Source: Candidatus Poribacteria bacterium | GTDB taxonomy: Bacteria; Poribacteria; WGA-4E; JAJDTR01 | Assembly (NCBI GenBank): GCA_028820655.1 | Contig: JAPPIK010000004.1 | Coordinates: forward strand, 62,001-126,000 | DNA: 64,000 nucleotides | Direction: 5' to 3' | Part shown: positions 15,348 through 62,723 of the stretch, piece by piece | Numbering within the stretch: the stretch's first letter is position 1 | Layout: every line of letters begins with the position of its first letter | Notes under the pieces: generated by a model | What the model saw: only the letters and a program-made list of their open reading frames with translations | What the model was told of the DNA's origin: nothing | Databases searched by the model: none | Translations under genes and position numbers: made by a program

Positions 15348-15370
15348 AGATCAACAGAACGGTCAATTAC

Positions 15371-16160
15371 TGTGATAAGGGAATCCCCTTGTGGGAGGGG
15401 AATCCTTTCCCCGATTCTTTTCAACACCATCCCCTGTGAGGGGGAATCCCCCTGTGGGAGGGGAATCCTTTCCCCGATTCTTTTCAACACTATCCCCTGT
15501 GAGGAGGGAATCCCCTTGTGGGAGGGGAATCCCTTCCCCGATTCTTTTCAACACCATCCCCTGTGAGGAGGGAATCCCCCTGTGGGAGGGGAATCCCTTC
15601 CCCGATTCTTTGCAACACCATCCCTGTGAGAAGGAAATCCCCTGTGGGAGGGGAATCCCTTCCCCGATTCTTTGCACTACCATCCCTGTGAGGCGAGAAT
15701 CCCCTGTGGGAGGGTAATCCCTTCCCCGATTCTTTGCACTACCATCCCTGTGAGGCGAGAATCCCCTGTGGGAGGGGAATCCTTTCCCCGATTCTTTTCA
15801 ACACTATCCCCTGTGAGGAGGGAATCCCCTTGTGGGAGGGGAATCCTTTCCCCGATTCTTTTCAACACCATCCCTTTGAGGAGAGAATCCCCTATGGAAG
15901 GAAATCCCCTGTGGGAGGGGAATCCCTTCCCCGATTCTTTGCACTACCATCCCTGTGAGGCGAGAATCCCCTGTGGGAGGGGAATCCTTTCCCCGATTCT
16001 TTTCAACACTATCCCCTGTGAGGAGGGAATCCCCTTGTGGGAGGGGAATCCCTTCCCCGATTCTTTGCACTACCATCCCTTTGAGGAGAGAATCCCCTAT
16101 GGAAGGAAATCCCCTGTGGGAGGGGAATCCCTTCCCCGATTCTTTGCAGAACTATCTCCC
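15371..16160. repeat. REP-like array, 12 units, next to the RAYT gene
   Basis: Twelve head-to-tail copies of a GTGGGAGGGGAATCC...TTCCCCGATTCTTT element start at 15391, 15454, 15518, 15582, 15644, 15706, 15768, 15832, 15911, 15973, 16037 and 16116. Spacing is 62-64 bases except for two 79-base steps, where a second half-unit (CTATGGAAGGAAATCCCCT) is inserted. Each unit has a GTGG tetranucleotide and an imperfect stem GGGGAA/TTCCCC, the layout of REP elements recognised by RAYT enzymes. The units are contiguous, without unique spacers, and the period is not a multiple of three, so it is neither CRISPR nor coding. Confidence 0.88.
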
Positions 16161-16254
16161 GTGGCAGAAGCATTCTTGCTTCAATTCTCACAACGAGATA
16201 AAATGTAACCCCAATTATCGACAGACAGACTCAATCTCGTCAAAAGGAGTAACC

Positions 16255-16728
16255 ATGAACCGTTATCCAACCCGAGGAAGCCGACAATTGCGCAAAGGCA
16301 GACACGTAAAACCTGGAACATACTACCTCCTCACCACTTCTACGATTGACCGAAGACCGATTCTCTCAAACCCTGAAGTTGCACGAATCATCTTTGAAAC
16401 TTTTGAATGGTTAGAAACCCAAGATAGAATCAAGTGGATTTCTGTTATAGTCATGCCTGACCACATCCACGCTGTCGTCCAACTTGGTCCTAACCAAACC
16501 TTAACCAAAATCATGCACTCCTTCAAGATGTTCACAGCTAGGCGAATTAACGAACATCGCTGTGAAAGCGGTTCGGTATGGCAAGAAGGGTATCATGATC
16601 ACGGAATTCGGCGAGATGAATCTCTGAGCAAAATTATTCGCTACTGCTATCATAACCCTGTTAGACGAGGCTTAGTCAAACAAGCAAGAGATTACCCTTA
16701 TTGGAGATACAAATCCAAGATTGAGTAA
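16255..16728 (+). CDS. REP-associated tyrosine transposase (RAYT, Y1/IS200-like)
   Basis: The 157-residue enzyme starts at an ATG preceded by AAAGGAG. It has the HUH motif (His70-Ile-His72 in VMPDHIHAVV) and the WQEGYHDHGIRRDESL segment carrying the probable nucleophile Tyr113, then YCYHNPVRRGLV, typical of the Y1_Tnp/RAYT group. These single-strand DNA nucleases cut and move REP hairpins. It stands immediately downstream of the 12-unit array, and decayed REP-like units also follow it (16729-17041), so it sits inside its presumed substrate. All key residues are intact. Confidence 0.92.
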   Translation: MNRYPTRGSRQLRKGRHVKPGTYYLLTTSTIDRRPILSNPEVARIIFETFEWLETQDRIKWISVIVMPDHIHAVVQLGPNQTLTKIMHSFKMFTARRINEHRCESGSVWQEGYHDHGIRRDESLSKIIRYCYHNPVRRGLVKQARDYPYWRYKSKIE

Positions 16729-17041: not shown

Positions 17042-18298
17042 GTGAGAACAACTATGCCACAAGACCTCTCCGCCCAACAGAGAATCATCAATCTCCTTCA
17101 AAACTTTCGCGGGACCGATCCTCTAAAGGAACTGTTTTGGAGCGAGTTAAACTACGACCGCCAAAACGCCCCAATCCCCCGCATTGACTGGAATCAAAGA
17201 AACATATCCAACACGGCGGACGACCCGCTCCTGTTCGCGACAGGCGGAGAAAACTCCGATTTCCATCTGATATACACCCGTCTCGACTCGGAGCGCCTCC
17301 TCCTCACCGCTGAACGTCCCATCATCTCCCGCCTTCTTAGGGACTACCCCAATGCACTATTCATCTTCAGCAACCGCGAACAAACCGACTGGCATTTCGT
17401 CAACCCCAAATATGACGAAGAGCATCCGGAGAAACGCCGGCTTTACCGACGCATCACGATTGGACGCTCCGAAAAACTTCGCACTGCTTCCGAGCGGATC
17501 GCGTTGCTGGACGCAGAATCCTTAGACTCGCCGCTTGAAATTCAAAACCGCCACGACGAAGCCTTCGACGTTGAAGCCGTAACAAACGAGTTCTTCAAAA
17601 GCTATCAATCTGTTTTCCAGCGCTTGCAGACCGACTTGACGAACCAGACGAATGACAACCAGTGGGCGCACGATTTCGCCTTGCAATTCCTCAACCGCTG
17701 CATGTTCCTCTACTTCATTCAGCGCAAAGGATGGCTTGGTGACGACACCGAGTTTCTGAAGACGTTTTGGGATTCGTATCGGACAACAAATCAACGGGTA
17801 GACTCCTTCGTCGAGCATTGGCTCAACGTCATGTTCTTTGAGGCGTTCAATAACAAATTCCACGGCGGACACCGCCAGTTCCCGGACGAGATTCGAAGAG
17901 CGTTAGCCTCAGCCCCTTTCCTCAACGGTGGTCTGTTCACCGAGAACGACCTAGACAACCGACATGAATTCCAAATCTGCGATGCTAGCTTCGAGAGTAT
18001 CTTCAATTTCCTCGAAGGCTACAATTTCACCATCGCGGAAGACAGCCCGCTCGATCAAGAGGTCGCCGTCGATCCGGAGATGATTGGAAAGGTGTATGAA
18101 AGCCTGGTCAACGTCTCGGAGGAGACCGATGAACGCGGCGATGCCGGCATCTTCTACACCCCGCGCACCGAAATCGACCTGATGTGCCGGTTGGCGCTTG
18201 TGGATAACCTGACAAATCATCTGGGAGAGGAACATAAGTCTGCGCTCTATGAAACCATTCTCGCCTTTGACCCGGACGACAAAATGGCTGCGGACTAA
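17042..18298 (+). pseudogene. Type IIG-like restriction-methylase, N-terminal segment (ends at an in-frame TAA)
   Basis: This 418-codon segment is the N-terminal part of one long gene that spans 17042-20687. It contains motifs such as LQFLNRCMFLYFIQRKGWLG, FLNGGLFTEND and the helical lead-in IGKVYESLVNV...GIFYTPR that precedes the methylase domain in Eco57I/BREX PglX/type IIG enzymes. Right after MAAD a TAA (18296-18298) stops the frame. The next codons in the same frame (QLREKNLW, then LAILDPACGSG) continue the protein, so this is a single nonsense change. Start is GTG 17042 or ATG 17054; neither has a strong ribosome-binding site. Confidence 0.8.
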
Positions 18299-19234
18299 CA
18301 ACTCCGAGAAAAGAATCTGTGGAATCCCCTTGATGAATGCCTAAAAAAGTTGGCTATCTTGGACCCCGCCTGCGGTTCCGGTTCCTTTCTTGTCGGGATG
18401 CTGCATGTGCTTGATGATCTGCGGGAAAGAGCGATTCGCCAACTTGGGCGCGGCCAATTGAGTTTTGACCGAAAGAAGGCGATTATCGGTGAAAATCTCT
18501 ACGGCGTGGACGTGATGGAGTGGGCGTGTCACGTGGCGGAACTGCGACTCTGGCTGGCACTCATTATAGACGCGGATATTTCCAGTGGAGAACTCCGAGA
18601 GCTCCCCCAGCCTCTGCTTCCTCATTTCTCTTTCAACATCCGATGCGGAAATAGCCTCGTACAAGAAATTGGCGGCTTCAACCTTGCTCAGATCTTAGCG
18701 GACTTTAGTGGTGTGTCGAACACCTTGAAAGACAAAGTGAAAGTCTTGAGGGAGGAAAAGCTTAAGTTCTTCAACAACGACGACACCCGCCAATATCGCT
18801 CTAAACAGGCGTTGGAGAAGGAAGAGGTGACCCTCTTCCGTAAACTCATTGATTCTCAAGTAAACGTGATAAAAGGGCATATCAATGTCTTGCATCAAGA
18901 AATTCGCGCCGCCAGAGTGCAGCAATTGAACATTCACGGAGAAGCTGAAGCCCCGGGTGCCGGCGAACTAGACCGCGACACCCAACAGTGGCAGGAACAA
19001 ATTAAAACTCACCCTGTACACTGCGACGAACTCAAGCAAACTTGGTTCGCTATCGGAAACACCCCTACTTTGCCGTTTGTCTGGGACATCGCCTTCGTCC
19101 AAATCTTCGCCGCTGAGGGAAGCGGATTCGACATCGTCATCGGCAACCCGCCTTACGTTCGGCAAGAAAATATCGCCGACCCGAATCTCCCGCGCGAGAA
19201 CATTACACCCGAGAACCAGAAAGCCCAAAAAAAA
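18299..19234 (+). pseudogene. Same restriction-methylase, adenine methylase core
   Basis: This segment, in the same frame as the previous one, holds the SAM-binding motif I LDPACGSGSFLVGM, the segment GVDVMEWACHVAELRLWL and the catalytic motif IV NPPY (IGNPPYVRQ, near 19147), which mark N6-adenine methylation. A helical insertion lies between them. Translation on its own could start at the ATG 18350 (the frame reads MAILDPACGSG from TTG). After ENQKAQKK the frame is lost in a run of nine A residues (19227-19235); eight A residues would restore it. The catalytic core itself is undamaged. Confidence 0.8.
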
Positions 19235-20687
19235 AGCCTACAAAGCCAAACTTGCACGTTCGGTGTATCAAGCTTTTCCCGATTTCTTTGGCTACAAACG
19301 CCATAAGGACGAATCTGACAATCCGTCCGCCGCCGTCTCTAAGAGACTCAATGCCCAAAGCGACCTCTACATCTACTTCTATTTTCACGGACTTTCCGTC
19401 CTCAACCCTAAAGGCTCGTTCTGTTTCATCACCTCCAATTCGTGGCTGGATGTCGGATACGGCAAAGACCTTCAAGAGTTCCTCCTGAAACACTGCCACA
19501 TCAAGCAGATTATCGACAACCAGGCGCGGCGTTCCTTCGCCTCCGCCGACGTGAACACCGTCATCTGTCTCTTCTCTGCACCTGAAGAAGAACGCGGGGC
19601 GGTCTTAGATACAACCGCACGGTTTGTGATGTTCAAGACTCCCTTTGAGGGGGTGCTGGATCCGGTGATCTTTGAGGAAGTGGAGAAAGCGAACGAACGC
19701 ACCAACACCCCGGAGCACCGCATCTTTCCCGTTCCTCAACGTAAACTCTTGGAATCGGGCGGCGACTATCAAACTCCGGTCAAATACACCGGCGATAAGT
19801 GGGGCGGGAAATACCTTCGCGCCCCCGACATCTACTGGACGATTTTGGAGAAGGGAAGGGACAAGTTGGTGCGTTTGGGCGATATAGCAGAGGTGCGACG
19901 AGGTATTACAACGGGAGCGAACGAGTTTTTCTACCTTGATGCGGAAGCAGTGGAGCGATGGGAAATTGAGGAGGAGTTCCTGAAGCCCGTCATCTATTCG
20001 CTGCGGGAATTGGTCTGTATAGAGGACCAATTGGATGGGCTTGAGAGAAAGATTTTCCTCTGTCATGAGAGTAAATCACGTCTAAGAGGGACAAACGCCC
20101 TGACGTACATTGAATGGGGACAGCGTAACGGCTTCCATAAAACGCCAAGCTGTCGATCAAGGCCACTCTGGTACAGTTTAGCCGAAGGCTGGAATCCTGC
20201 GCCTTACATATTTCCCGCGAAGGTAGGCGAGCGGATGCTGGTTTTGAGCAATCAAAGAGGTGTCTTAGAAGACAAAAAGCTGTATGGTGTTACTCCCTTC
20301 GAAGAAGGTCCAGAGTTCTTGTATGCGGGGCTGTTGAATAGCACGTTAGTGCGATTCTTTATGGATCTGTCATGTCGTCAACTCACCGGTGCGCAATCAA
20401 TTGCCGACGTTGATGTACGCGTTGTGAAAGAAATTCCAATATTGCCGACCGGCCTCATCTCGAACAACCAACACTTGTTTAGACTTGCCTATGACCAGGT
20501 AAAGTTACGACCAATAGAACAACGAGTCACAGATGAGTATACAATGCCAGATCGCCGCGCCCTTGACGCAATCATTTTTGATGCCCTCGACCTTACACAA
20601 GGGGAACGAGATGGGGTGTATGAGGCGGTTGTAGAACTTGTCGAGGCGCGGTTGAGTAAGGGGAAGAGTTTGAACCAACAGTCATAA
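19227..20687 (+). pseudogene. Same restriction-methylase, C-terminal and target-recognition segment
   Basis: The frame that resumes after the A-tract reads KKKAYKAKLARSVYQAFPDF, continues the methylase fold (GSFCFITSNSWLDVGYGKDLQ) and then a TaqI-like specificity region (GDIAEVRRGITTGANEFFYL; LLNSTLVRFFMDLSCRQLTGAQ; VKEIPIL). It runs to a normal stop at 20687 after about 485 codons. Together the three segments would make a protein of about 1,214 residues, normal for this class. The target sequence cannot be predicted. Confidence 0.8.
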
Positions 20688-20879: not shown

Positions 20880-22076
20880 ATGCGAGAATTTGACGTTACC
20901 TTGTCATTTGCCGGAGAAGATCGAAAACTCGCAGAAGATTTAGCGAAACTTCTTGACACAGGTGGCTATTCAGTCTTCTACGACGAATTTGAACGAGCAA
21001 GACTTTGGGGCAAAAACCTCTATCAATACCTAGCGTCCGTCTACCAAGATAAAGCACGCTACTGTGTCATTTTCCTGTCCAGACACTATCTGCAGAGTTC
21101 ATGGGCACAACACGAACTCCAGAATGCGCAGGCGCGGGCATTCGTTGAACAAAACAAGGAGTATATTCTTCCCATCCGTATAGACGATACGAAGATTCCA
21201 GGAATCTTGTCCACAGTCGGTCATCTTGATTTGAGCAAAGTAGGCGTTGAGGACGTCTATCAGCATCTAGTGGAGAAGCTGTCGGGTTCCCAATCACGAA
21301 CATCGCCAAACGAGGAATTGGTACCGAGCCCACTCGTAAGCGAATCGAAAGAATTCGCTCTGTTGCGCCCCGGTGATAATAACCTGTATTTCATACCGTT
21401 TCAGGAAGCTCAATGGAATTCAACGGAAATCTCTCTCGGCCTTCTTCCAGAATCGTCTGAAGAAAGTGCCTTTCTCCGTTCACTACGCGATGATCTTAGT
21501 AATATGTTTTCAAGTCGACAAACATTCGCTTTTGCATTGGGGCAAGAAGCCGCGTGGGTAAGTCCACAGGAGATTGCACAAACTATGTCGGGGACAAAAA
21601 CGGTTTGGAAAGTTGTATTGAAGAGAGAAAACCCCGGACAAAATGACGATCTTTTTGGAAATGTTACATTTTCGAACTTGTCACCAGATCGAATTGCTGA
21701 ACTCCGAGCGAGAAGAATCCTTCTTGATGAAAAGTTAGAAGCTGTCAGTTCTGCTTTAAATCAAGTTGATCTAATAAATCAAGCAACATTGGATTCTTTT
21801 ATTCGCGGCACGAACCCATCACTCGAAATTCGCAAATGCCCTATTCCCGACTTGTACCGATCTTTCGGGCAAACATGGCAGAGATTTGAGAAATTTGCCC
21901 GTTTGGTCGCGGTTCTCTTTCTGAAACTTTCAAACACAGTTCAAGACGTGCTTGAAATAGATTTTAAATTTCTAGATGCAAATCAGTTGCAGGTAAGATT
22001 CAGAGGACGCCGCCCACGTTACGCTGTAAACGCAACTCCTTCAATTATTGAAGTAAATGGCATTTGTCCACTGTAA
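20880..22076 (+). CDS. TIR-domain protein with unknown C-terminal domain
   Basis: The 398-residue protein has an N-terminal TIR domain (about 1-135): FDVTLSFAGEDR, YSVFYDEFERARLWGKNLY, YCVIFLS and SSWAQHEL, where Glu79 is the likely NADase residue. It is about two thirds identical by eye to the TIR domain of the gene at 24370. Residues 160-398 form a separate domain I do not recognise, ending in RGRRPRYAVNATPSIIEVNG. No membrane segment is present. An AAGGAG site is close to the start. Bacterial TIR proteins commonly degrade NAD or make nucleotide signals in anti-phage defence; that role here is inference from the domain and the restriction gene upstream. Confidence 0.85.
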   Translation: MREFDVTLSFAGEDRKLAEDLAKLLDTGGYSVFYDEFERARLWGKNLYQYLASVYQDKARYCVIFLSRHYLQSSWAQHELQNAQARAFVEQNKEYILPIRIDDTKIPGILSTVGHLDLSKVGVEDVYQHLVEKLSGSQSRTSPNEELVPSPLVSESKEFALLRPGDNNLYFIPFQEAQWNSTEISLGLLPESSEESAFLRSLRDDLSNMFSSRQTFAFALGQEAAWVSPQEIAQTMSGTKTVWKVVLKRENPGQNDDLFGNVTFSNLSPDRIAELRARRILLDEKLEAVSSALNQVDLINQATLDSFIRGTNPSLEIRKCPIPDLYRSFGQTWQRFEKFARLVAVLFLKLSNTVQDVLEIDFKFLDANQLQVRFRGRRPRYAVNATPSIIEVNGICPL

Positions 22077-22215
22077 TCATGAACCAAGTAATAAAAGTAA
22101 TTGTCTGAATCACAGATTACGCTGGTAGTTTAGATAAAAAACACACTGTAGCCAATGCGTAACGTGCAGCAGACAAACTGAACCAATCAATTGATACCCC
22201 ACGCAAAACGACCAT

Positions 22216-22935
22216 ATGGCTAGAAAAATCTTCGTTTCGTACAAGCATTCCGATCGCAACGTGGCACCTCTAAACGGTCAAATGATCGCTCGCGAATATG
22301 TCGATGAATTAATCAAACTCTTTAAAGGTGATGAGATTTTTAAGGGCGAAGGCAACGAGGACCTCAGCGAGTTCAAGGATGAAACGATTCAGACTCATTT
22401 GAAAGACAAAATCTACGACAGTAGCATTACCCTAGTGCTACTGTCGCCCAATATGAAGAATGCGTACGAAGATGAATCTAACCAATGGATTCCAAGGGAG
22501 ATTTCGTATTCGTTAAAAGAGATTGCACGCCAAGGACGTAAAAGTCGTACTAATGGGATGCTCGCGGTCGTGTTACCGGATCAATATTGGTCATACGCTT
22601 ATTTCCTTGAAAATAACACTTGCCCTGTTTGTCATTGTACAACTCACCATACAAACAGGCTGTTTCAGATACTTCGAGAGAATATGTTCAACATAAAGGA
22701 GCCTACATTTAACCCGTGTTGGAACCATTTGAGCACCAATCTTGTCTACACCGGGCTGTTTTCCTACATTCATCCCGTCAGATGGTGCGATTTTATAAAA
22801 AACACAGAGGCAAACCTGAAAATAGCTGAGGATATCAGAGAAAACATTGATGCTTACAACCTTACTAAGGTGGTGAAGGATTACGTTAGGAAATCGACTG
22901 GGAATGAACTAGGTGGATATACCGCCAACTTTTAA
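22216..22935 (+). CDS. ThsB-like TIR-domain protein
   Basis: The 239-residue protein opens with [13 protein letters not shown] and continues with [14 protein letters not shown] and [13 protein letters not shown]. These are hallmarks of the DUF1863/ThsB-like TIR group, distinct from the TIR type of its two neighbours. Glu95 in WIPRE is the expected catalytic residue. In Thoeris systems such a protein makes a cyclic or modified ADP-ribose signal that activates an effector. No ThsA gene is nearby; instead the next gene, 20 bases on, encodes a small membrane protein. A CPVCHC segment (around residue 137) could bind metal. Confidence 0.88.
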
Positions 22936-22955
22936 TCTTGAGATTGGAGGAAAAA

Positions 22956-23369
22956 ATGAACGGCACTGAAAAGGTAGTTGAGCATTTGAATATAACCCAA
23001 GCTGTCATAAACAGATTGGGAAGAAACAGTTTCTTAGTAAAAAGTTGGAGTATGACAATAATTGCGGCAGCCATGGTTTTAATCGCTAAACACGAGGTCG
23101 AGAATCCCAATTTTGTTTTGGCGTTAGTTTTCCCCGTTGTAGGCTTTTGGATTCTTGACGGATACTTCCTCTGGCAGGAGCGCCTGTTCCGAAAAGTCTA
23201 CGACAAAGTCAGAGTCCAACCTGACACCGACTTTCAGATGGACGTTGCCAAACACAGAGGTAAACCGAAATGTAGCTGGGTATCGGCGATCTTCTCTGTC
23301 ACGCTCGTCATCTTTTACTTGATTGAAATTGCCTTTACGGCGTTTTTGTTCTTTATTGTTAAAGCTTAA
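22956..23369 (+). CDS. Small membrane protein paired with the TIR gene
   Basis: The 137-residue protein starts at ATG 22956, which follows TTGGAGGAAAAA. It has three likely membrane segments (about 32-45, 52-73 and 110-134), a cytoplasmic-looking basic/acidic loop (residues 74-108, LFRKVYDKVRVQPDTDFQMD) and an amphipathic N-terminus. The gap of 20 bases to the ThsB-like gene implies co-expression. I believe I have seen this type of protein beside ThsB-like TIR genes in other genomes, but cannot confirm it here. A membrane effector or anchor role is inference. A decayed second copy lies at 25780-26096. Confidence 0.8.
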   Translation: MNGTEKVVEHLNITQAVINRLGRNSFLVKSWSMTIIAAAMVLIAKHEVENPNFVLALVFPVVGFWILDGYFLWQERLFRKVYDKVRVQPDTDFQMDVAKHRGKPKCSWVSAIFSVTLVIFYLIEIAFTAFLFFIVKA

Positions 23370-23394
23370 GCACGACTAGCGACGCGACCAACTG

Positions 23395-23598
23395 ATGCGA
23401 AGTATCTTCCAAGACCAGAATCCAGAACCGAAGGCAGCAGGCAAGAACCCAATTGCACAACGCATCATTGAAGCCGTTGAGAAATCGTACGACGTGACAA
23501 TGGAAGACGCGGAAGCCTTACTTCGGGTAATCAAGGAAAACCAACAGGCCGTGCAATTTGAGCCGCCGTTTGAGGTAGGCGAACGCAAGAATCAATGA
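23395..23598 (+). CDS. Small protein resembling the neighbouring antitoxin
   Basis: The 67-residue protein (core NPIAQRIIEAVEKSYDVTMEDA) matches the broken frame at 23700-23900 along its length: both show AQR-I-A, then VT-x2-D, VIKE, and a PF...E ending. That paralogue precedes a PIN-domain toxin, so this is probably a VapB-type antitoxin that has lost its toxin, or a duplicated copy. There is no clear ribosome-binding site. The family is unnamed to me. Confidence 0.55.
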   Translation: MRSIFQDQNPEPKAAGKNPIAQRIIEAVEKSYDVTMEDAEALLRVIKENQQAVQFEPPFEVGERKNQ

Positions 23599-23699
23599 TG
23601 AACCGGATTAAATGGGACGAATCTTATTCGCGGAATACCCAATCCGCCTGACGGAGGAGCGATACCATGCGAAAAGAAGAGTAACAGCGGAAAGCCACA

Positions 23700-23900
23700 A
23701 TGCCAAATGAAAAACTTCACGATGAAACGCCGCCATCCTAAAAAAATGCGAGCGCTCAACGCCTTATCAAAGCAATGGGACAGCCATCCCATGTCACTCC
23801 CGATGATATTAAGTTCCTCATCAAAGTAATCAAAGAAGCAAAGCAATCTACACGAAACAAATCACCCTTTGATGGGATTGAGGAACTTGAAGCACAGTGA
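23700..23900 (+). pseudogene. VapB-like antitoxin, broken by a stop codon
   Basis: ATG 23700 opens a 66-codon frame interrupted by TAA at codon 14 (23739-23741). The rest (NASAQRLIKAMGQPSHVTPDD, later KEAKQSTRNKSPFDGIEELE) resembles the protein at 23395. Its terminal TGA overlaps the GTG start of the PIN gene, the usual antitoxin-toxin junction. Re-initiation at an internal ATG (KAMGQ) could yield a shortened product. Confidence 0.65.
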
Positions 23901-24322
23901 GCCGCTGCCTGCTTGATGCCACAACCTGCAGCCACCTTATGAGTAATGATCCAACAGTATTTGCGCGTTTGGATGCGCACACCAATGTGGACTATTATTT
24001 CACGATTCCCATTGTTTGCGGCGAGATTCAGTACGGGATTGAACGATTGGAAACAGGAAGAAAACGTCGCGAACTGTCACAGAGAGCCGATTATCTTTTT
24101 CATGAAATTCCTTGCGAGGCAATTCCAAGAGAAGCGGGCAATTATTACGCACAACTGAAGCGGCAGTCTGAATGATAAGGAACGCCGCTAGAGGACAACG
24201 ACCTTTGGATTGCCTCCACAGCGTTGGTGTTCGATGCGATTCTCGTGACCTCTGATAGCGACTCTAGTCGCCTACAAGGCTTATTCGGACTACAATTGGA
24301 AGATTGGACAATTTCTCATTGA
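23897..24322 (+). pseudogene. VapC-like PIN-domain toxin, frameshifted
   Basis: The first frame (GTG 23897) reads SRCLLDATTCSHLMSNDP and PIVCGEIQYGIERLETG, with the first acidic residues of a PIN ribonuclease, and stops at 24175. A second frame then continues the domain: PLEDNDLWIASTALVFDAILVTSDSD, ending LFGLQLEDWT at 24322. The two halves are joined by a frameshift near 24170-24190. Intact VapC proteins cut tRNA or rRNA; this one is probably inactive, which fits the damaged antitoxin. Confidence 0.75.
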
Positions 24323-24369
24323 CGTGATGATGCGCTCAGTATTCAAGTTTCATCGAAGGAGCACACAAG

Positions 24370-24978
24370 ATGAAAAAGTATGATGTCGCCCTATCCTTTG
24401 CCGGAGAAGATCGCGTTCACGCCAAGGAACTGGCTAAGCTTCTTAAGTCCGGAGGCTATCGGGTGTTTTACGACGACTATGAAAAACCTCGTCTTTGGGG
24501 GAAGAATCTCTACGACGAACTGTCATCGCTTTATCAAGACCAGGCGCGATACTGCGTGATGTTCCTGTCCGAACACTATGCCCGAAATTGGTGGCCCAAC
24601 CACGAACGCGAGAGCGCACAGGCAAGAGTTTTTATCGAAAAGAATCGGGAGTATATTCTCCCCATCCGTCTTGACGACACAAAGATCCCAGGACTATTGA
24701 TGACAGTAGGATATCTCGATTTGCGATCCATGAATATTCAGCAAGTTTACCACGTTCTGAAGCAAAAATTGGCAGGTGCCAAAACTCAAGATAAAAACCG
24801 GGATAAGCCGCAGTCCCGCGAAGATTTTATTGCTATCGCACGAGAACATGCAAATATAGGCGGGTGGTACGATGAATCTATGCTTGAGGAAATCGGGCGA
24901 GCCATCTACAATTCATGGCAAGGTGAGGAAATCATCGAAAACTACGATGAAGCATGGAAAACTCTGGGCAATCTTTGA
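24370..24978 (+). CDS. TIR domain fused to a probable antitoxin-like tail
   Basis: The 202-residue protein has a TIR domain (1-135; DVALSFAGEDR, VFYDDYEKPRLWGKNLY, Glu79 in WWPNHE) closely related to the one at 20880. A linker follows, then a 58-residue acidic tail beginning SREDFIAIAREHANIGGWYD and ending WQGEEIIENYDEAWKTLGNL. Its stop codon overlaps (TTTGAGG) the TTG that starts the Doc-like frame, as antitoxin genes overlap Doc genes. I therefore infer that the tail works as the Doc antitoxin. An AAGGAG site lies upstream. The fusion is seen; the antitoxin function is a hypothesis. Confidence 0.8.
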   Translation: MKKYDVALSFAGEDRVHAKELAKLLKSGGYRVFYDDYEKPRLWGKNLYDELSSLYQDQARYCVMFLSEHYARNWWPNHERESAQARVFIEKNREYILPIRLDDTKIPGLLMTVGYLDLRSMNIQQVYHVLKQKLAGAKTQDKNRDKPQSREDFIAIAREHANIGGWYDESMLEEIGRAIYNSWQGEEIIENYDEAWKTLGNL

Positions 24979-25339
24979 GGTACTTGACATTTGAAGATAT
25001 TCTGATCGTTGCTCAGAGGCATATCGGCAACTATTGAAGGAAAATCAACTGCGTTATTTGGTCCAAATGGTGGGTGAGCAGTTGGACGACAAGGAACTAT
25101 TTCCAACCTTGCCGATAAAAGCTGCGTTTTATGCCCATCACATCATTGCGGGCCATATATTCTTGGACGGCAACAAGCGTATCGGCTTAGATTGTGCTCT
25201 TTGGTTTCTGACAATGAATGGTTGTTCACTCCGTCGTGACATCAATGAAGCCATTATCGAACTTGGTCTCGGTATTGCCAATGGTTCAATCACAGATCTT
25301 GAAGCAATCGCAAATCGAATCCAATCATGGATTCTGTAG
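24975..25339 (+). pseudogene. Doc/Fic-family toxin, frameshifted near its N-terminus
   Basis: The first 20 codons (TTG 24975; LRYLTFEDILIVAQRHIGNY) match the start of Doc-type proteins, then the frame closes at a TGA. From 25034 another frame continues with FPTLPIKAAFYAH and the Fic motif HIFLDGNKRIG, and runs to a normal stop. Doc toxins phosphorylate EF-Tu using this motif. A shortened 101-residue product from TTG 25034 would keep the active-site motif but lack helix 1. Sequencing error cannot be excluded. Confidence 0.75.
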
Positions 25340-25412
25340 TTTCTCAGTCAAGTACCTCGCCAAAACTTCATCGTTAGAGTGCTTTCCGGTTTCAGGCCGG
25401 ACTTAGAAACAA

Positions 25413-25622
25413 ATGCCGCACGACATAATTGTCAACCGAAACGAAAAGCTGGTTGAACACATCAACCTTAATCCTACATATACCGAACGAGTGCGTCTCG
25501 CGTTCGGATACTTTTTCCTCTCGGGCTTCCAGAATATTGCCGAAGAACTCAAAGGCGTCAAGGAACTGCGTCTGCTAATCGGAAACAAAACGAATCGGGA
25601 GACGTTGGCGTGGTTAGTCTAG
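25413..25622 (+). pseudogene. N-terminal fragment of a PLD-like/helicase protein
   Basis: The 69-residue frame (RNEKLVEHINLN, RLAFGYFFLSGFQNIAEEL, KELRLLIGNKTNRETL) resembles the opening of large SNF2-type helicases with an N-terminal phospholipase-D-like domain that occur in defence islands. It ends at 25622 and the remaining 900 or more residues are absent. It is a remnant, not a functional gene. Confidence 0.6.
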
Positions 25623-25779
25623 CTTTTCGACTGGCCCAAGATTGTCTGCAGCGCAGCACTGGTTTAGCATTCTGCTTGAATAATCATGGGCTCCTCGCAA
25701 ACCTTGTACCCACAGCTTCCCCTTCACTCCGCATCCCGCGTGCAGTGAAAACCGATCCAAACGCTTCCATAGTCGGGTT
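25623..25779. other. Remnant DNA, nothing recognised
   Basis: This stretch lies between the helicase fragment and the decayed membrane-protein copy. Open frames run through it but carry no domain I recognise. Confidence 0.4.
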
Positions 25780-26096
25780 TGGCAAAACCGTGATGCTACT
25801 TACCGCCATCTATTGCGCCCACCGCTCCTACCTCAGCGTGATCCTGATTCACTCTATTGTAGATGTAGATGCAGATTTTTGGATTCTTGAGAGATGTGTC
25901 CTCTAGTAGGAAACGTCGTTCCAGAAAGTGTTCGTCCACGTTAATCCCCAATCCGACACCGATTTTAGACGGATCCGCCCAAACACTAACATGAACCGAA
26001 GGGCAGATGGGAATCGGCTATCGTCTCCCTTACCCTCACTATCTTCTACTTAATCGCAATCGGTTTGACGGCATTACTGTTCGTTTTTGTTAGAGC
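25780..26096 (+). pseudogene. Decayed second copy of the TIR-associated membrane protein
   Basis: Reading across frames, the stretch gives VMLLTAIYCAH, then ...DADFWILE, then RKVFVHVNPQSDTDFR, then WESAIVSLTLTIFYLIAIG followed by LTALLFVFVRA. These align in order with residues 30 to 137 of the intact protein at 22956 (FWILD, RKVYDKVRVQPDTDF, WVSAIFSVTLVIFYLIEIA). At least two frameshifts and a stop break it, and the normal stop codon is lost. No matching TIR gene copy survives beside it. Confidence 0.8.
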
Positions 26097-26291
26097 ACAA
26101 TTACCGCGCCATACAAACCGGGTCCGTCGCAAACCCACACGTCCGAATCTCTATGTGCCGTTCCGCCTCCCCCTCCCGGCAGCGATCTCCACTATTCCAA
26201 GATTTCACAACCTCTCGGCGTCCCGGCCCAATAAAAATCCAACCCTCGGTAATATCCACGGCGCGATGCAATGTTTGTCAAATTTTTGGAC

Positions 26292-61055: not shown

Positions 61056-62723
61056 ATGAGCCAAATTGAGATCAGGGATGTCAGTTTTACCTACCCGAGT
61101 CGAAGCGAGCCAAGTCTGAAGAGAGTAAAAGCAGAAGTTAAGTGCGGCGAGTTTATTCTCCTCACTGGCCCCACCGGATGTGGCAAATCCACGCTGTTAA
61201 GAACCCTGAACGGTTTAATCCCTCAGGCTTCAGGTGGCCTACTCTCCGGTGATGTCACAATAGACGACTCAAACCTTTCCGACCATCCGCTGGCATCAAT
61301 CTGCCAAAGTGTAGGTCTGCTATTTCAAAATCCCGGTGACCAGTTTTTTTGTACGGTGGTTGAAGACGAAATCGCCTTCGGTCTGGAAAACCTTGGTGTT
61401 CCCTCCTTTCGAATAGATAGCCGGATCGACGCGGCTTTGGCACAGGTCGAGCTTCCTCCCGAATTTCGAATTCGCTCAATCTCGACACTCTCCGGGGGTG
61501 AAAAGCAACGGGTTGCCCTCGCTTGCTTGTGCGCAATGCGGCCACGAGTTCTCCTCCTTGACGAGCCAACGAGCCATCTCGACCCCAAGAGTAGGCGCGA
61601 CATTCTCAATATCCTAGGACAACTAAACCGCGAGGATGGGATGACGGTTGTAATCGGGACCCATCGTGTAACAGAAATCGCACCGTTGTGTGACCGCGTT
61701 TGGCTGATGAATTGCGGGGAACTCGCCTTGGATTTACCCGTAAATCAAGCCTTTTCGGACCTTGACCCTTATCGTGATTTGGGAGTGGAGGTTCCCGATT
61801 TGGCTGAAGTATCGGAACAATGGGGACTGTCTGAACGCCCGATCACCGTTGATCAAGCTGAAAAGCTTTTTCTCCAATCCAATAGATTGTCAAGTACCTC
61901 CCCCTCTTCTTCCGAGGTTTCAGAATATATTGGCCACGAGCACTCCCATCAAGGTGCGCAAAGTGTACTTGCCAGTATCGAGGACATGACGTTTCAGTAT
62001 CCGCGCGCGGCCTCTTCCGCATTACGCCGTATCTCGTGCGAGATCAGCGAAGGTGAAATAATTGCCGTGATGGGGGCAAATGGAGCGGGGAAAACGACGT
62101 TACTCTTGTCAATTCTAGGGTTACTTCGTCCCACGATAGGAAAGATTCTCATTAAAGGCGTGAACGGTACGCGTTTGAAACTTCACAATTTGGCTGGACA
62201 AATCGGAATCGTCTTTCAAGATCCCGATCTCTTGCTGCAGGCGTCAACCGTACTCGATGAAGTCGCTTACGGACCCGGAAACCTTAAGCTATCTCATCGC
62301 GAAATTCATGAGCGAACCACGGAAGTTTTGACGGCGCTCGATTTGGATAGTCTCCGCAATGAAGCTCCCTTTTCCCTGTCGCGGGGACAGCGGCAGCGCA
62401 CGGCAACAGCCGCAGCCTACTCGCTTCTTCCAGATGTACTCCTCCTTGACGAACCTACTGCGGGACAGGATTTCAGCCATCTCCAACAGTTGATGACCGC
62501 ACTTTGCGCTTCTGTCGAAGAGCAAAACAAAACGTTAATCTTTTGTACCCATGACGCCCAACTCACCTTACAGTACGCGAAACGGATTCTGTTACTGCGT
62601 AAAGGCGAATTGATCTTCGATGGGCAACCAATGGACGCCTTTTCAAATCCGGAATTGCTGGAAGACGCGTCGCTTGTTGCCCCATTAAGAACTCAATTGA
62701 GTTGGCGGTTGGCGAACAATTAA
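61056..62723 (+). CDS. ecfA: Energy-coupling factor transporter, two fused ATPases
   Basis: The 555-residue protein joins two ABC ATPases. The first has GPTGCGKS (Walker A), LSGGEKQRVALA and VLLLDEPTSHLD. The second has GANGAGKTT, a changed signature LSRGQRQRTATA and VLLLDEPTAGQD. Both have the Q-loop segments FQNPGDQFF and FQDPDLLLQ typical of EcfA. A fused EcfA1-EcfA2 with an adjacent EcfT drives uptake of vitamins or metals through a substrate-binding S protein, which is not in the window. It starts nine bases after the radical SAM copy 2 stop. Confidence 0.92.
   Translation: MSQIEIRDVSFTYPSRSEPSLKRVKAEVKCGEFILLTGPTGCGKSTLLRTLNGLIPQASGGLLSGDVTIDDSNLSDHPLASICQSVGLLFQNPGDQFFCTVVEDEIAFGLENLGVPSFRIDSRIDAALAQVELPPEFRIRSISTLSGGEKQRVALACLCAMRPRVLLLDEPTSHLDPKSRRDILNILGQLNREDGMTVVIGTHRVTEIAPLCDRVWLMNCGELALDLPVNQAFSDLDPYRDLGVEVPDLAEVSEQWGLSERPITVDQAEKLFLQSNRLSSTSPSSSEVSEYIGHEHSHQGAQSVLASIEDMTFQYPRAASSALRRISCEISEGEIIAVMGANGAGKTTLLLSILGLLRPTIGKILIKGVNGTRLKLHNLAGQIGIVFQDPDLLLQASTVLDEVAYGPGNLKLSHREIHERTTEVLTALDLDSLRNEAPFSLSRGQRQRTATAAAYSLLPDVLLLDEPTAGQDFSHLQQLMTALCASVEEQNKTLIFCTHDAQLTLQYAKRILLLRKGELIFDGQPMDAFSNPELLEDASLVAPLRTQLSWRLANN

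Follow-up and report, generated by a model that had tools for sequence, protein, structure and literature searches.

How many immune units can a handful of neighbouring TIR genes make up, and are all of them still alive? The question is raised by a stretch of 64,000 nucleotides (positions 62,001–126,000 of contig JAPPIK010000004.1; hereafter the window) from the genome of Candidatus Poribacteria bacterium (5.88 Mb, 61 contigs), in which defence-type genes and their wrecks occupy approximately 17.0–26.1 kb and the flanks carry ordinary-looking genes. Three TIR genes stand in this island, named TIR1, TIR2 and TIR3 in order (Table 1). With a probability of roughly 60%, we read the island as a defence hotspot in decay, where the TIR domain has joined up with three partners of different kinds to form three separate TIR units. 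This reading builds on the observed anatomy of the genes, their pairings, their conservation and their breakage, from which enzyme activity, signal, membrane action, sensing and antitoxin action are inferred. Open reading frames (ORFs) of the window were scanned against Pfam, NCBIfam and PADLOC models, and the phylum was represented by 84 genomes; L-numbers are labels of the compared loci.

TIR1 and TIR3 form a related pair. Both match Pfam TIR_2 (70.6 and 64.9 bits, respectively; cut-off 28) and they share 85 of 140 aligned residues (61%), beyond which nothing meaningful aligns. An earlier sequence-only reading, which had described two TIR domains about two thirds identical with different C-termini, holds on this point, its estimate of identity being close. 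The W..E motif, whose glutamate we take to be the NADase catalytic residue, is kept in all three TIRs, and W75, H78 and E79 are among the conserved columns in seven aligned TIRs of the TIR1/TIR3 type.

A ThsB-like TIR and its membrane partner

TIR2 matches Pfam ThsB_TIR (24.3 bits, cut-off 21.2) and, almost end to end (residues 1–218), a PADLOC ThsB model (252.6 bits, E 1.2e-75). It is 59% identical over 224 amino acids to a ThsB adjoining ThsA on a P. larvae plasmid, in which the W91..E95 of TIR2 is also kept. P. larvae gave the best plasmid matches, and the neighbour in the opened record is a SIR2 protein called ThsA by PADLOC (E 4.6e-193). Five of the 59 plasmid records with TIR2-type genes were opened. 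ThsA was the partner in two, including Cupriavidus, where PADLOC also made the call, and a protein with three transmembrane (TM) segments in the other three, from V. chagasii and two L. plantarum plasmids (46% and 44% identical to TIR2). Five further Bacillus rows among the matches listed, 34% identical to TIR2, also lie on a SIR2 gene. PDLC00428 was the best ThsB model for the TIRs of the window, of P. larvae and of V. chagasii, the three covered by that scan, from which the Cupriavidus and L. plantarum TIRs were left out. On sequence and gene order, closely similar predicted ThsB proteins have two kinds of partner, since ThsA accompanies them in P. larvae and Cupriavidus and a three-TM protein in V. 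chagasii and L. plantarum.

In the phylum, TIR2 was detected in six of the 84 genomes (E ≤ 1e-20), and the TM gene is the next gene in all six, 20–96 bp away. No SIR2-type ThsA was found in the host genome, window included, with the P. larvae ThsA as query (E ≤ 1e-5). The neighbour of TIR2 matched neither SIR2 nor macro models, and a genome-wide search for a TM-macro ThsA was not run. The sequence-only reading had likewise placed a ThsB-like TIR gene between the other two, paired with a membrane protein, and had seen no ThsA.

The membrane protein has a likely start at the ATG at 22956, 20 bp after TIR2, is approximately 140 amino acids long and matches PADLOC PDC-M50A (128.7 bits, E 4e-38). 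Three hydrophobic segments are common to all 23 TM proteins aligned from bacteria, an archaeon and phage, with R20, N24, K29, D68, E75, R79 and Y82 invariant. The family occurs in 38 of the 84 phylum genomes (E ≤ 0.001, relics and partial hits counted), in 134 plasmid records and in three Vibrio phage records, and a scan of viral contigs gave one locus. We opened 15 plasmid loci, chosen among the matches listed of the 134 and incompletely annotated; a TIR gene was the next annotated same-strand gene in ten, lay within two genes in three more (two on the other strand) and was not seen in two (S. angustmyceticus and P. megaterium Mes11). TIR–TM pairs are found on plasmids of many phyla. In one Vibrio phage, a gene that its depositors labelled ThsB stands behind an integrase and shares 4 bases with the TM gene, and PADLOC agrees on both.

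Within the phylum, a TIR neighbour (same strand, within 150 bp) was found for 20 of 49 TM ORFs, compared with 23 of 1021 other ORFs of at least 100 amino acids. The 49 exclude the window, one locus (G030), the window relic and two weak rows. This comparison does not amount to a probability and is tilted towards the reading we favour: the loci are related to one another, and TM neighbours supplied part of the TIR models, so that TIRs of other kinds may have been missed elsewhere. Fifteen of the 20 neighbours are ThsB-like but of a type different from TIR2; the two that were scanned (L103 and L124) match both PDC-M50B and ThsB models, the L103 protein scoring higher on ThsB and the L124 protein about equally on each.

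Several points weigh against our reading. By the rule used, no TIR adjoins the remaining 29 of the 49 phylum TM ORFs, and five related loci (L089, L090, L092, L097 and L129) have TPR and FRG genes ahead of the TM gene in place of a TIR, with FRG checked against Pfam in L089 only. Loci of one phylum are related, hence the counts are not independent. Because several further genes of the cluster are broken, some of it may no longer be alive. Finally, a nucleotide signal acting on the TM protein is a guess, because the protein has no recognisable ligand-binding domain.

The likely role of the TM protein is that of a membrane effector in place of ThsA. When a phage is sensed, TIR2, acting as a ThsB, would convert NAD+ to a signal or undergo a change of shape, and the TM protein, occupying the place of ThsA in Thoeris, would open or disrupt the membrane, so that the cell stops. 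An unlikely alternative is that the TM protein is an anchor or immunity protein, holding or restraining a TIR enzyme that kills by NAD+ loss. Its small size, its three hydrophobic segments with invariant polar residues between them and its lack of a recognised ligand domain would suit such a role. Elsewhere, however, members of the same ThsB subfamily are accompanied by ThsA, a separate effector occupying the same position, and TM-type ThsA effectors are known (PMC11204291).

Other neighbours of the TM gene were also observed. The rows of FRG, TPR and TM genes point to possible further partners encoded upstream of the TM protein. On three actinobacterial plasmids (L195, L196 and L198) a HIT-domain gene is convergent with the TM gene, and such a hydrolase could serve to trim a nucleotide signal. 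A conserved gene of approximately 160–220 amino acids, presumably nucleoside deoxyribosyltransferase-like, lies just upstream of the TM gene in L101, L124, L125, L128, L131 and L134.

TIR1 and its mobile C-terminal domain

The second partner, in the reading of three separate units, is the C-terminal domain of TIR1. This domain is present in 26 of the 84 phylum genomes, and 29 of 37 named loci carrying it are titled Poribacteria; outside these it occurs in records titled Latescibacteria, Gemmatimonadota (two), proteobacterium, Eremiobacterota (two), Tychonema and Planctomycetota. Its N-terminal partners across these phyla are TIR_2 or SEFIR; that of Tychonema matched DUF4062 below the cut-off only, and a partner scan of the L175 ORF gave no match. 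The second half of the domain has plasmid matches in Nostoc, Calothrix and Hymenobacter, and on the Nostoc edaphicum plasmid (L276) a macro-domain gene lies just upstream. Pfam searches of all 36 aligned members returned two families, one member each, with E near 0.09–0.10, and a PDB sequence search with the domain profile returned no match. The C-terminus of TIR1 is a mobile domain without a Pfam family.

The whole protein was modelled with a predicted local distance difference test score (pLDDT) of 77.2, and the C-terminal domain alone with a pLDDT of 86.4 and a predicted template modelling score of 0.87 (36 sequences). The first ~100 residues of the domain model run strand-strand-strand-helix-strand-strand-strand. 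The best VIA-align hit was 9b45_V (Z 10.7, 96 residues aligned, root-mean-square deviation 3.0) and the second had Z 10.2 over 89 residues; both are phage baseplate proteins, and the whole-TIR1 model gave the same two (Z 10.9 and 10.5). Tail, tube, neck, baseplate, gene transfer agent, injection-system or Hcp chains made up 48 of the 50 structures listed. These comparisons cover mainly residues 1–102 of the domain model, with 103–247 barely probed. We regard the likeness of the model to phage tail-tube proteins as a lead only, because Foldseek against the PDB gave no E below 1e-3 (best 2.6e-3, with PilZ, FMN split-barrel and HerA chains appearing too), only Foldseek-ranked chains entered the structural alignment, and such structures are abundant in the PDB. 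A bold reading of the model would make the domain a tail-tube look-alike, sensing phages by joining their tail assembly. The idea that TIR1 is the cargo of an injection system was dropped, as no such genes were noticed beside it, though no search was aimed at them. By its architecture, TIR1 is plausible as a self-contained sensor-NADase, a single-gene NAD+ consumer that would be switched on by its own C-terminal domain.

An FRG-TPR gene directly follows the TIR1-type gene in 11 of the 15 non-window phylum loci (L103 and L105–L114; one truncated), likely a two-gene unit absent from the window, and the FRG-TPR gene that was scanned (L108) matches the PADLOC candidate PDC-S15. In a tree of 27 TIR domains, the 11 TIR1 genes with this partner form one starred set, with the window TIR1 outside it. 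A search for FRG in the window gave no match beyond chance. Loss from the window was the initial reading and was not kept, since FRG is also absent from L104, L115, L117 and L118 and it is equally likely that the window never had it.

The order of the genes allows a further alternative, improbable in our judgement, namely a single multi-gene system with TIR1 as sensor, TIR2 and TIR3 as signal makers for a shared TM effector, and the restriction enzyme as a component. Indeed, the order of type IIG gene, TIR1, TIR2 and TM is kept in L104, a ThsB-like TIR and a TM gene lie within approximately 3 kb in four of 16 TIR1-type loci (window, L103, L104 and L105), and TIR3 lies downstream of a TM gene in all three genomes that carry it. 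However, no TM gene was found in the other 12 of the 16 within the stretch fetched (some short), the FRG-TPR gene is present instead or as well in the 11 loci above, and TIR–TM pairs occur without TIR1 on plasmids and in phage.

TIR domains joined to antitoxin-like pieces

If the units are separate, the third partner of the TIR domain is an antitoxin-like tail. TIR3 is followed by a Doc/Fic toxin gene, whose ORF contains HIFLDGNKR, corresponding to the motif HxFxDGNKR that we take to be the mark of Doc/Fic; Doc relatives occur in 56 of the 84 genomes (E ≤ 0.001, partial hits counted). Thirty Doc loci, a part of the Doc table that includes the window and the query's own locus, were examined for the preceding ORF (the longest same-strand ORF ending from 60 bp before to 140 bp after the Doc start). 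In 30 of 30 it carries AWKxL within its last 20 residues. By reading of the sequences, 27 of these ORFs are TPR proteins, one is a short ORF and two are TIR proteins (the window and L212, which is the same place as L087). The pattern looks like what would be expected of an antitoxin's toxin-binding tail carried on exchangeable domains.

The 58-residue C-terminus of TIR3 is 76–78% identical in two other genomes (L085 and L087), higher than the TIR domains in front of it (66% and 60%). L087 has an intact Doc gene that overlaps TIR3, and in L085 only a Doc remnant follows. Because its C-terminus ends in the AWKxL tail that precedes Doc in all 30 loci, TIR3 is probably a TIR-antitoxin and not a sensor, its toxin being dead here. 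The sequence-only reading had proposed one TIR module reused with different sensors, with residues 145–202 of TIR3 as one of them; the different C-termini stand, TIR1 may carry a sensor, and the TIR3 assignment gives way to the Doc-type tail. With Doc broken, TIR3 would be an orphan, or would provide a further TIR for the neighbouring TM protein. A scan of viral contigs with the TIR3 C-terminus gave no locus. In the 27-domain tree the three TIR3-type TIRs are not one clade (3 changes; shuffled mean 2.9), but the tree resolves little (2 of 24 inner branches starred), hence we claim neither one nor several fusion events.

A parallel was found in a longer version of the TIR1-domain protein (453–480 amino acids, with another TIR), where 12 of 13 intact loci have a BrnT toxin gene overlapping or adjoining it on the upstream side (BrnT confirmed by Pfam in L119). 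The N-terminus of these TIR proteins is also seen in a TPR protein linked to BrnT (L226/L261), and L258 has it in a true BrnA antitoxin that stands next to BrnT (Pfam 50.6 and 55 bits). In L256, L257 and L260 the BrnA-like N-terminus is present, with no BrnT match in the stretch covered. As TIR3 ends in a Doc-type tail and the BrnT-linked TIRs carry a BrnA-type N-terminus, an antitoxin-like piece is joined to a TIR in two toxin-antitoxin families, Doc and BrnT/BrnA. Among the matches listed from the open-access literature, no title concerned TIR-Doc-antitoxin fusions or TIR defence in Poribacteria. Tentatively, TIR enzymes of this phylum may be built into toxin-antitoxin modules, with the toxin as bait and disturbance by a phage freeing the TIR in a guard-type circuit. 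The antitoxins partly exchanged for a TIR would then be that of Doc in TIR3 and BrnA in the proteins that combine a BrnA N-terminus, a TIR and a TIR1-type domain beside BrnT. The TPR protein of L226/L261, a possible double antitoxin, unites a BrnA-like N-terminus, TPR and a tail like that of the Doc antitoxin, and both BrnT-type and Doc-type genes lie near it.

Decay of the island and comparison with known systems

Table 1. Intact and broken features of the island, in window coordinates
Feature	Position	Strand	Remarks
Type IIG restriction-methylation gene, broken	17042-20687	+	PADLOC REase_MTase_IIG; at least one in-frame stop, one frame change
TIR1	20880-22076	+	398 amino acids; TIR domain residues 1-140, mobile C-terminal domain ~152-398
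Tail-tube/Hcp/baseplate-like part of TIR1	21333-21635	+	Modelled: six strands, one helix
TIR2	22216-22935	+	239 amino acids; ThsB-like TIR, W91..E95 kept
Three-TM membrane protein (PDC-M50A family)	22938-23369	+	PADLOC PDC-M50A
Small ORF	23395-23598	+	Antitoxin-like by position only; no Pfam match above cut-off
VapC-like (PIN) gene	23897-24310	+	Two adjacent in-frame stops; PIN E 0.081, VapC E 0.067, both below cut-off
TIR3	24370-24978	+	202 amino acids; TIR domain, then 58-residue C-terminus
Doc-antitoxin-like tail of TIR3	24904-24975	+	AWKxL motif
Doc/Fic toxin gene	24954-25339	+	Frame broken near start; NCBIfam DOC_P1 42.9 bits, cut-off 38.65
Truncated start of long gene	25413-25621	+	Collinear with start of 1109-residue ORF in L087; DNA 76% identical in L104; in a relative the long gene comes after the island
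Relic of second three-TM copy	25793-26097	+	tblastn with a relative's TM protein: 36% and 45% identity, two pieces with stops; weak hit also in the search of the phylum genomes

Much of the island is broken (Table 1). The type IIG pieces, in two frames, are 64% and 52% identical to one open ORF of 1223 amino acids in L104. This locus belongs to a different family within the order and is collinear with the window, with the open type IIG gene followed by a gene of 347 amino acids, TIR1, TIR2 and TM. L087 and the window have TIR3, Doc and the beginning of the following long gene in common. A degenerate copy of the small ORF seems to follow it at ~23680–23899. The toxin-antitoxin genes announced by the sequence-only reading are present, mostly as wrecks, and of its membrane-effector genes the one beside TIR2 stands and the second is a relic. 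Relatives of the island's parts adjoin other defence-type genes, in keeping with the defence role proposed there. Upstream of the island, a tandem array with a unit of ~62–64 bases occupies 15370–16148 (~8 copies in 15370–15908, more beyond), and an ORF over its end (15955–16728) is presumably transposase-like.

Such wreckage could mean that toxin-antitoxin and defence fragments land in this island, where the intact TIR frames have merely not yet decayed. The broken type IIG, VapC-like and Doc genes, the second TM copy and the Doc remnant of L085 would all fit, yet TIR1, TIR2, TM and TIR3 are full length relative to their homologues with conserved motifs kept, and general sequencing error is disfavoured because the other long genes of the window are open; we consider this explanation quite unlikely. 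Very doubtful is the view that the C-terminus of TIR3 is an ordinary linker or a phage sensor, for although nearly the whole of it occurs in only three of the 84 genomes, two of which have a broken Doc, it ends in the pre-Doc tail shared by every locus examined, and the L087 gene overlaps an intact Doc.

For the decaying hotspot with three separate TIR units, some consequences can be drawn. Similar ThsBs occur with either ThsA or a small TM partner, so that an exchange of effectors in TIR immunity could be tested directly with just two small genes. Fusions of TIR and antitoxin in two toxin-antitoxin families that are unrelated would connect two research fields, and the TIR1-type mobile domain could receive its own family model. 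The cluster shows a mixing and matching of bacterial immune parts.

Compared with type I Thoeris (a ThsB TIR with a SIR2-SLOG ThsA), TIR2 belongs to the same ThsB subfamily as the P. larvae protein beside ThsA, but a three-TM protein stands in the place of ThsA, for which the host genome gave no SIR2-type match. Type II Thoeris, a TIR with a TM-macro ThsA, offers a membrane-type partner for a ThsB-like TIR (PMC11204291), although the TM protein of the window is short and without a Pfam macro-domain match. Against the type III model (NCBIfam ThcB4), TIR1 scored 16.0 bits (cut-off 220) and no match was listed for TIR2 or TIR3. The compact TIR2–TM pair would work in a Thoeris-like manner, but as no ThsA accompanies it, it was not filed as Thoeris.

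SpbK and DSR2 are reported to be NAD+-consuming proteins set off by phage proteins. TIR1 shares with them the architecture of an NAD+ consumer that carries an additional, possibly sensing domain, but this domain belongs to a different family, with no Pfam family or PDB sequence match. TIR3 and its neighbour resemble Phd-Doc modules, in which the gene just ahead of a Doc-family toxin carries a short conserved tail at its C-terminus; here, however, a TIR makes up the remainder of that antitoxin-like gene (TPR in most relatives) and Doc is broken.

The closest counterpart of the TIR2–TM pair is the PADLOC candidate PDC-M50, for which no test was found among the open-access papers listed or in passages of PMC11514479 and PMC11811056. 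The TM protein of the window is PDC-M50A, and in L103 and L124 the TM gene adjoins a TIR matching PDC-M50B. TIR2 differs in belonging to another ThsB subfamily, without PDC-M50B among its matches, although PDC-M50B is itself ThsB-like. The sequence-only reading had expected one or two undescribed defence units; for TIR2–TM this needs amending, as PADLOC already lists PDC-M50A with the ThsB-like PDC-M50B as a candidate. Judged by its two proteins, the predicted TIR2–TM unit is a variant of PDC-M50 with a different TIR.

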